Shown here: positions 21,396 through 23,004 of the stretch, piece after piece
Position numbering within the stretch: position 1 is the stretch's first letter
How the letters are laid out: the number at the start of each line of letters is the position of its first letter
Virus record (IMG/VR): IMGVR_UViG_3300035187_001755
Span: 1-23,020 of that record
Source: a virus
Length of the DNA stretch: 23,020 nt
Strand: one strand, 5' to 3'
The notes under the pieces: generated by a model
Database searches by the model: none
What the model was told of the DNA's origin: nothing
The model's input: the letters and a program-made list of their open reading frames with translations, nothing else
Position numbers and translations under genes: made by a program

Positions 21396-21938
21396 TTATT
21401 TGAATTTAAAAAAATCCGCCCTACACACTGATACATAAGATTCTTCGCGCCCAATTTGTACTTGAGCGCCTTCATCAATTCGTTTGCCATCTGCACCAAT
21501 ACGGATGTTCATTGTGGCTTTTTTACTACATGAGCATATTGTTTTAATCTCATTAATCTCATCAGCCCAAGCTAGTAAATATTTACTGCCTTCAAATGGT
21601 TCGCCTTTAAAATCTGTGCGCAATCCATAGGCTTGAACTGGTATATCTGAAATATCTACGACACTTGCAAGAAATGTGACTTGTGCTTTTGTGAGAAACT
21701 GCGCTTCATCTACAAATACGCAACTTATGTCTCTAAGTAAACTTGCGTCAAATGTATCGGCATCCCACACCATCGCATCGCTAGAAAGGCCTATACGAGA
21801 CTCTATTCTAGTTTTACCTACAACAGCAGGAATCAATAAAAGTGTCTTCATGCCCCGCTCTTGATAGTTATATGCTGATTGTAAAAGGGATGTCGTCTTG
21901 CCAGCATTCATCGCTGAGTAGTAGTAGTAGAATTTCAT
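21396..21938 (-). CDS. tdk: Thymidine kinase (type II)
   Basis: The 180-residue enzyme phosphorylates thymidine to dTMP with ATP and supports the nucleotide supply of the phage. It is very like E. coli thymidine kinase: [20 protein letters not shown] holds the P-loop (SAMNAGKT), NYQERGMKT follows, [10 protein letters not shown] holds the catalytic Glu and Mg-binding Asp, [20 protein letters not shown] is the lasso region, and [11 protein letters not shown] and [10 protein letters not shown] carry the zinc ligands. The fourth ligand, His in E. coli (VCRKH), is Asp here (VCRAD). The protein is about 25 residues shorter at the C-terminus than the E. coli enzyme. The ribosome binding site is AGGAAG. 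It lies in a minus-strand operon that converges on the terminase small subunit. Confidence 0.95.
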
Positions 21939-21996: not shown

Positions 21997-22017
21997 AACC
22001 CAGAGTTTATCTGGGTT
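21997..22017. terminator. Hairpin between the DUF3310 gene and thymidine kinase
   Basis: AACCCAG (21997-22003) and CTGGGTT (22011-22017) are a perfect 7-bp stem with a 7-base loop. On the plus strand it is followed by only two more T and then mixed sequence. On the minus strand, the direction of the genes, it is followed by ATATGTTATAAAATG. It may act as a weak attenuator or RNA stability element between the two genes. Confidence 0.45.
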
Positions 22018-22043: not shown

Positions 22044-22490
22044 TTAACTTTTCCATTTGGGAATTACAAAACCATGTTTAGTAAGTTCATCAGATAATAA
22101 GTTATAACTTTTTTTGCCGAAATTCGGAATTCTTTGTAACGCTCTTTTGTCGCCTATTTTGAAAAGTAAATTTAAAATATCTTCGATTGTGTGCAAGCCA
22201 TCGGCTAATAAGCAATTTTTAGTTCTTGCATTTAAATCTAAATCATTTATTAATGTGTTTCGAGTTGCCTTTAACTTTTGTTCTTGAACGCTCTTTATAA
22301 GCTCATTTAGATAAAATTTAGCTTTATGCAAATCTTCAATTCCGTTTTTTTGTCTCCAACGCCAAACATATTTAATTATGTTGCCATCAACAAATGGTAA
22401 GTTTTTTACAATATCTAAGCATTCTATGTTTTTACCGCATTCGCAATGTATATCAAGCGAATAGTGTTTCGGGTGATTTACGTTACTCAT
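22044..22490 (-). CDS. DUF3310 fused to an RNA polymerase alphaCTD-like domain
   Basis: The 148-residue protein has two parts. Residues 1-65 are a DUF3310 domain: NHPKHYSLDIHCECGKNIEC, then FVDGNIIKYVWRWRQKNGIE and DLHKAKFYLNEL, the usual pattern of this phage family. Residues about 82-142 match the C-terminal domain of bacterial RNA polymerase alpha: NDLDLNARTKNCLLADGLHT, then RIPNFGKKSYNLLSDELTKH. The DNA-binding residues of E. coli alphaCTD, R265, N268, C269, G296, K298 and S299, correspond to R89, N92, C93, G125, K127 and S128. A helix-hairpin-helix of another origin is the alternative. It overlaps the upstream gene by eight bases. A role in transcription control is inferred. Confidence 0.8.
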   Translation of the reverse strand: MSNVNHPKHYSLDIHCECGKNIECLDIVKNLPFVDGNIIKYVWRWRQKNGIEDLHKAKFYLNELIKSVQEQKLKATRNTLINDLDLNARTKNCLLADGLHTIEDILNLLFKIGDKRALQRIPNFGKKSYNLLSDELTKHGFVIPKWKS

Positions 22491-23004
22491 AAGACCTCAA
22501 CATGTTTAATCGTTTAGCGTCGTGAATAATTTGGCGAATTTCTTGAACATAACGGAAGTTAACTAATCTTCGTAATTTTTCGGCTTCTTCTTTTTCTAAG
22601 CCTGTTGCATTTCCACCAACATGAGCAATTGAAAATTCAAGTTCATTTAAAATACACAAACACAAATCCAACTTAAATTCATACACTGAGCTTTCAATAG
22701 GGTGATTTAAAAATAATTCATGATTATATTCTCTTAGTTGTGGCCCAAGATTTCCGGTTATTTGTTCAATTATAAATTTTTTTTTTGGTGTTATTGTTTC
22801 TTTTTTCTCATAAATTGCTTTCAAATTTTCAGATAAATTAATTATTTGCACAATATTTCTATCAATTTGTAAAAGAATTAATGTTTCTTCATCCATTATT
22901 GATTTTTCCTTAATTTTTATATTTGCGAATCGCATGTTAAATCCTACAATGCTAAGTATATCACCAACTTTTCGAATGTCATCTATACTTTGACAGTCAA
23001 ACAT
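22483..23004 (-). CDS. Unknown early protein, 173 aa
   Basis: Start ATG 23004 has AAGGT at suitable spacing. A second in-frame ATG at 22896, with AAGGA ten bases upstream, would give 137 residues, so two products or the shorter one alone are possible. The protein is helical and mixed-charge: residues 37-110 (MDEETLILLQIDRNIVQIIN and onward), then a block with LDLCLCILNELEF and an end with LRRLVNFRYVQEIRQIIHDA. No catalytic motif, membrane segment or metal site is evident. It overlaps the DUF3310-alphaCTD gene by eight bases, so the two are translationally coupled. Family unknown. Confidence 0.66.
   Translation of the reverse strand: MFDCQSIDDIRKVGDILSIVGFNMRFANIKIKEKSIMDEETLILLQIDRNIVQIINLSENLKAIYEKKETITPKKKFIIEQITGNLGPQLREYNHELFLNHPIESSVYEFKLDLCLCILNELEFSIAHVGGNATGLEKEEAEKLRRLVNFRYVQEIRQIIHDAKRLNMLRSYE

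Follow-up and report, generated by a model that had tools for sequence, protein, structure and literature searches.

A phage protein joining DUF3310 to an RNA polymerase alpha C-terminal domain: a candidate DNA-tethering regulator

Introduction

UP elements and many activators act through the C-terminal domain of the RNA polymerase (RNAP) alpha subunit (alphaCTD), a domain that phages are known to inactivate. If a phage protein were instead to carry a working copy of this domain, it would represent a different route to transcription takeover, namely a small, genetically separable tool that competes with the host alphaCTD. A gene of this kind was predicted in a 23,020-nucleotide stretch of viral DNA (hereafter the window; positions 1 to 23,020 of IMG/VR record IMGVR_UViG_3300035187_001755), where an alphaCTD-like segment follows a DUF3310 domain. 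The locus raises the question of whether this segment is a true alphaCTD and, if so, what a phage would gain by attaching it to DUF3310.

The fusion gene and its neighbors

The fusion gene (22044..22490) is read on the minus strand, which the original prediction had not specified, with its ATG at 22490 and its stop codon ending at 22044; it encodes 148 amino acids and has in-frame relatives in eight other IMG/VR contigs. A gene for 173 amino acids lies upstream (22483..23004, minus strand), and because the two overlap by 8 bp they are likely carried on one transcript. This upstream gene differs strongly between close phages (37–52% in several).

Downstream lies a thymidine kinase gene (21396..21938, minus strand; Pfam TK, 143.8 bits), which by synteny adjoins the fusion gene in the window and in contigs L003, L004, L006, and L008. 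The thymidine kinase gene moves within the lineage and is found elsewhere in L005, L079, and L114; the gene that takes its place 3' of the fusion (L079:5596-6006 and L005:5476-5898) opens, by eye, like a CHC2-type zinc-finger primase. Just past the fusion gene, a pattern scan located a hairpin with a T-containing tail (21997..22017, minus strand; -11.4 kcal/mol), a possible though weakly evidenced intrinsic terminator, given that the scan returned 2 such patterns versus 1.8 expected in shuffles. Promoter matches around the fusion gene were no more numerous than in shuffled sequence, and tRNA and Rfam scans gave no matches.

Identity and fold of the C-terminal domain

Profile searches divided the protein as originally predicted, with Pfam DUF3310 at residues 4–62 (22305..22481, minus strand) and RNA_pol_A_CTD at residues 70–136 (22083..22283, minus strand). 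The latter profile (PF03118, gathering cut-off 23.8 bits) matched at 41.5 bits (E 1.1e-10; 41.5–43.2 bits overall), compared with 14.8 bits for the generic helix-hairpin-helix (HhH) profile HHH_5, a comparison that had been set beforehand, and among the relatives scanned the alphaCTD profile outscored HhH wherever both matched. Eight NCBIfam rpoA models aligned to the protein through their C-terminal ends only, and the nearest PDB sequences were those of E. coli alphaCTD. The alpha N-terminal dimerization and assembly domain was absent from the Pfam and NCBIfam results, the 148 residues consisting of DUF3310 and CTD only.

Structure prediction agreed with this assignment. An AlphaFold2 model, for which 24 sequences (the window protein and proteins of the locus) were aligned, had a mean pLDDT of 90.1 and a pTM of 0.64. 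In it, DUF3310 includes a beta hairpin and is followed by a long predicted helix (residues 51–77; 22260..22340, minus strand; pLDDT about 89–98) that leads into the alphaCTD helices. The expected alphaCTD arrangement was present in the model: Foldseek against the PDB matched B. subtilis alphaCTD (1z3e_B; TM on target 0.91, rmsd 1.4 A), and all 50 matches listed were RNAP alpha. Against predicted viral proteins, one half of the model retrieved DUF3310 proteins and the other half retrieved uncultured-phage proteins labelled 'RNA polymerase, alpha subunit, C-terminal'. A generic HhH protein is ruled out by the profile scores and by the predicted fold. Judged from sequence profiles and the model, the C-terminal part of the fusion protein is a genuine alphaCTD homologue.

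DNA-contact and activator surfaces

Surfaces are described here by the 265, 261, and 287 determinants of E. coli alphaCTD. In the window protein, R89, N92, C93, G125, K127, and S128 correspond in the alignment to E. coli R265, N268, C269, G296, K298, and S299, L131 stands at the place of E302, and five inserted residues precede the second HhH block; the residue numbering, the leucine, and the approximate length of the insertion had all been given correctly in the original prediction. Six of the seven main DNA-contact residues of the 265 determinant are therefore kept in the window protein, E302 being replaced by Leu. The stronger claim that all main UP-contact residues are retained thus holds for these six, but not for E302, and relatives vary at N268, C269, S299, and E302.

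This variation was followed in six proteins of the lineage (window, L005, L006, L008, L079, and L114). R265, N294, G296, K298, and D259 are invariant in this set, position 261 being occupied by D, E, or N; the variable contacts are N268 and S299 (each kept in 5/6), C269 (3/6), and E302 (1/6), with both N268 and C269 lost in L079. Overall, the DNA-contact columns are identical to E. coli in 32 of 42 cells (permutation P 0.005), a value in which DNA contact and general structural conservation are not separable. By comparison, T285, E286, V287, and E288 are each kept in none of the six proteins, and the 287-determinant columns match E. coli in 0 of 24 cells (permutation P 0.013). At the sequence level the contrast between the DNA face and the 287 surface is clear, and the CRP-contact (287) surface, which also holds the insertion, is lost in the lineage. 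Among 24 phage alphaCTDs compared more broadly, R265 is present in 23, N294 and G296 in all, and K298 as K or R in all. In E. coli, R265 and N268 contact DNA in both UP-element and CRP complexes (PMC11434276).

These surfaces also bear on the explanation that the phage domain is a protein decoy, which would sequester sigma region 4 or those transcription factors, of host or phage, that otherwise dock on host alphaCTD, with DNA binding secondary. Activators converge on alphaCTD (PMC11434276), and an invariant D259 with an acidic or Asn residue at 261 would suit a protein-docking role; however, the surface that CRP contacts is the one that is lost and interrupted, and it is the DNA-face residues that are better kept. 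The decoy explanation is a serious rival, if an unlikely one.

The DUF3310 domain

The N-terminal part matches DUF3310 (PF11753, cut-off 24 bits) at 44 bits, supported by alignment and by the model, and it retains the hallmark residues N5, P7, H9, Y10, E23, K40, Y41, R44, K48, and K56, defined as invariant among 31 aligned DUF3310 relatives. A lineage-specific hairpin insertion, CECGK, occupies residues 16–20 (22431–22445, minus strand). It lies close to the C of an IEC(L/I)D motif, and might bind metal.

The original prediction had treated DUF3310 as a domain without a proven role, a position that needs revision: a role has been proposed, since the T7 protein gp1.7, annotated as a nucleotide kinase, carries DUF3310 at residues 122–184 (81.5 bits; hhalign of residues 120–185 against the DUF3310 alignment, 97% probability). 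The kinase work on gp1.7 (Tran et al.) is cited in two mycobacteriophage papers, which also report that DUF3310 proteins are strongly toxic when overexpressed (PMC9339283; PMC10700055). A PDB search for fold relatives of DUF3310 found none.

It can be asked whether alphaCTD serves simply as a general DNA tether, by which a nucleotide-metabolism activity of DUF3310 stays near replicating, AT-rich phage DNA, transcription not being the target. The intact hallmarks, the kinase precedent of gp1.7, and the thymidine kinase gene adjoining the fusion in several members would all fit such a tether. Yet in gp1.7 DUF3310 accounts for no more than the C-terminal third, and the kinase activity of the whole protein need not extend to the short domain by itself; moreover, the thymidine kinase gene is not beside the fusion in three members (L005, L079, and L114). 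Together with the evidence from other phages discussed below, this leaves the metabolic tether a serious rival to transcriptional regulation, less likely than not but somewhat more credible than a decoy.

Distribution of the fusion

Besides the window, the fusion occurs in frame in eight IMG/VR contigs (L002–L008 and L079), of which L002–L004 are near-identical to the window and L007 has the gene cut by the contig end. The other DUF3310 ORFs inspected in IMG/VR have no alphaCTD, most of them stopping soon past the domain; of the 33 records searched with PF03118, eight matched, every one from this lineage, and the further DUF3310-only records gave no match above the cut-off. A tblastn search of INPHARED with alphaCTD alone gave no DUF3310 partner among the matches inspected, five longer INPHARED DUF3310 matches that were inspected had alphaCTD nowhere in the whole record, and no full-length fusion relative was found in the GTDB genomes or plasmids searched. 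Because the IMG/VR, INPHARED, GTDB, and plasmid searches yielded no other carrier, the fusion appears, as far as seen, to be confined to one uncultured phage lineage. The survey suggested by the original prediction accordingly found the same extension in no DUF3310 gene examined outside this lineage, and the idea that the fusion is common among DUF3310 proteins is rejected on the alphaCTD-free DUF3310 genes inspected elsewhere.

No cultured near relative of the lineage was found at the DNA level, and the best terminase relatives are from Vibrio and Pseudoalteromonas podoviruses (about 52%). A search of the lineage for a T7-type RNA polymerase gave no match, as did its control search. A literature search, with most subscription journals outside its coverage, found no description of a DUF3310-alphaCTD fusion.

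Cassette-like exchange and selection

Synonymous divergence differs sharply along the gene. Between the window and L006, Ks is 0.08 in the DUF3310 core (residues 1–48) and 0.14 in the thymidine kinase gene, compared with 1.70 in alphaCTD; for L008 the corresponding values are 0.23, 0.43, and 1.31. Third-position identity likewise differs between core and alphaCTD (Fisher P 2e-8 and 9e-7), and L005 shows the reverse pattern (core Ks 0.42, alphaCTD Ks 0.06). These contrasts indicate that alphaCTD alleles have been exchanged independently of their surroundings.

The N-terminal partner is replaced as well. In the sister phage L114, an alphaCTD 68% identical to that of the window sits at the same locus, between the homologue of the upstream 173-aa gene and the small terminase gene, on a coiled-coil-like N-terminus of roughly 110 residues without DUF3310; the 15.5-kb partial contig of L114 contains no DUF3310. 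Read from these sequences, alphaCTD evolves as a cassette whose N-terminal partner is also exchanged. L114 shows that alphaCTD can be retained at the locus where DUF3310 is missing, so no DUF3310 activity is required, which counts against the metabolic tether. For the same reason, and because only one lineage carries it, the fusion is less informative about DUF3310 as a family than the original prediction had hoped. The swapping of alleles between close phages is what a partner- or host-specific part, such as a decoy, might show.

That the fusion is a recombination by-product, with an alphaCTD that has no role, might be suspected from its restriction to one lineage and its mosaic joints. Diverged alphaCTD pairs nevertheless show a dN/dS of about 0.2–0.5, with Ks close to saturation, the fold and the DNA-face residues are conserved across strongly diverged alleles, and the fusion is maintained in nine contigs; a functionless by-product is therefore very improbable. 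Based on these dN/dS values, alphaCTD is under purifying selection and the fusion, as far as sequence can tell, is real and selected. A frameshift or assembly artefact is ruled out by the in-frame fusion in other contigs and by a dN/dS below 1.

Other phage alphaCTD architectures

Phage alphaCTDs are also found with other partners. AlphaCTD and sigma-70 region 4 occur together above cut-off in L126, L150, L156, L166, and L167, with L134 just below (L126:2737-3333, L134:4797-5312, L150:1386-2234, L156:2416-3198, L166:2587-3198, and L167:2845-3393). These proteins come from phage contigs of several unrelated-looking families and each combine two promoter-binding parts of RNAP; that of L156 also has HTH_17. 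The recurrence of sigma region 4 as a partner argues that phage alphaCTD modules act at promoters, and its frequency weighs against a purely metabolic tether.

A different pairing is seen in gp23 of Ruegeria phage vB_RpoS-V16 (AWY09459.1; L076:1429-2295), which has an N-terminal alphaCTD and a C-terminal half matching PHROG pyrophosphatases. Here, as in the fusion protein, alphaCTD has a nucleotide-metabolism partner, which counts in favor of the metabolic tether. Elsewhere, alphaCTD sits on coiled-coil-like N-termini (L123 and L136) or stands nearly alone (L131, L119, L148, and L159), and an 888-aa protein from an Erysipelotrichales genome combines two alphaCTDs with sigma region 4 (L146:4974-7637). 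Homology-based annotation already recognizes alphaCTD proteins in phages, and the DUF3310 partner is a variant on these. Tentatively, phage alphaCTD may be a mobile promoter-targeting module, detached from RNAP and rejoined to DUF3310, sigma region 4, pyrophosphatase-type domains, and coiled coils, forming a class of RNAP-independent UP-element-binding regulators.

Proposed role and significance

The reading we prefer, with a probability of roughly 0.4, is that the fusion protein is a DNA-tethering phage regulator acting at AT-rich promoter DNA and carried by DUF3310, which is perhaps also an enzyme. It is the best-supported reading, drawing on the alphaCTD score far above that of HHH_5, the fold match, the conserved DNA face, the company of sigma region 4, the L114 arrangement, and dN/dS. 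Against it may be set the leucine at E302 in the window, the absence of N268 and C269 in L079, and the DUF3310 hallmarks, which are kept as an active enzyme domain would keep them. The interpretation offered by the original prediction, in which the protein might compete with host alphaCTD or bring DUF3310 to promoters, is overall partly supported.

Here we infer that the protein binds DNA, that it oligomerizes, and in which direction it would shift transcription. With its 265-type surface, the alphaCTD would hold on to the minor groove of AT-rich, UP-element-like DNA, and DUF3310 with the long predicted helix would serve as a carrier, probably pairing or multiplying alphaCTDs as the alpha dimer does in RNAP. 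Such a protein would occupy AT-rich sequences upstream of promoters, lacking both the remainder of RNAP and a CRP-contact surface. There it would most likely mark phage promoters or, at strong UP-dependent host promoters, compete with host alphaCTD, and the outcome would be a shift of transcription to the phage. As the same DUF3310 occurs with different alphaCTDs, and a similar alphaCTD with a different partner, the question is open to point mutants and domain swaps.

Comparison with known systems

The closest known counterpart is the CTD of E. coli RpoA (PF03118, residues about 250–329), to which the window domain is homologous by profile and predicted fold, sharing the counterparts of R265, N268, C269, N294, G296, K298, S299, and D259. 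Unlike RNAP alpha, the window protein has no alpha N-terminal domain, carries Leu for E302, and uses DUF3310 as a carrier; unlike E. coli alphaCTD, it has lost the 287 determinant and gained a 5-residue insertion. T7 gp1.7 shares DUF3310 and its hallmark residues, but differs in having about 120 more N-terminal residues and no alphaCTD. The other DUF3310 genes surveyed likewise have no alphaCTD, and only the window's lineage has the CECGK insertion.

Small phage proteins annotated with alphaCTD include the Bacillus phage Goe8 'RNA polymerase subunit alpha' (QDP42789.1) and the 'RNA polymerase, alpha subunit, C-terminal' entries of uncultured Caudovirales, in which the N-terminal partner is different or absent; in the literature searched, their functions are undescribed, and no phage alphaCTD fusions were found. 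Among phages that act on the host subunit itself, T4 ADP-ribosylates alpha. The phiKMV-like phage protein Rac cleaves the alpha linker, thereby attacking alphaCTD function (PMC7552054). Whereas Rac and T4 cleave or modify host alpha, the window protein would imitate it, and all of them would share one target function, the interaction between alphaCTD and the UP element.
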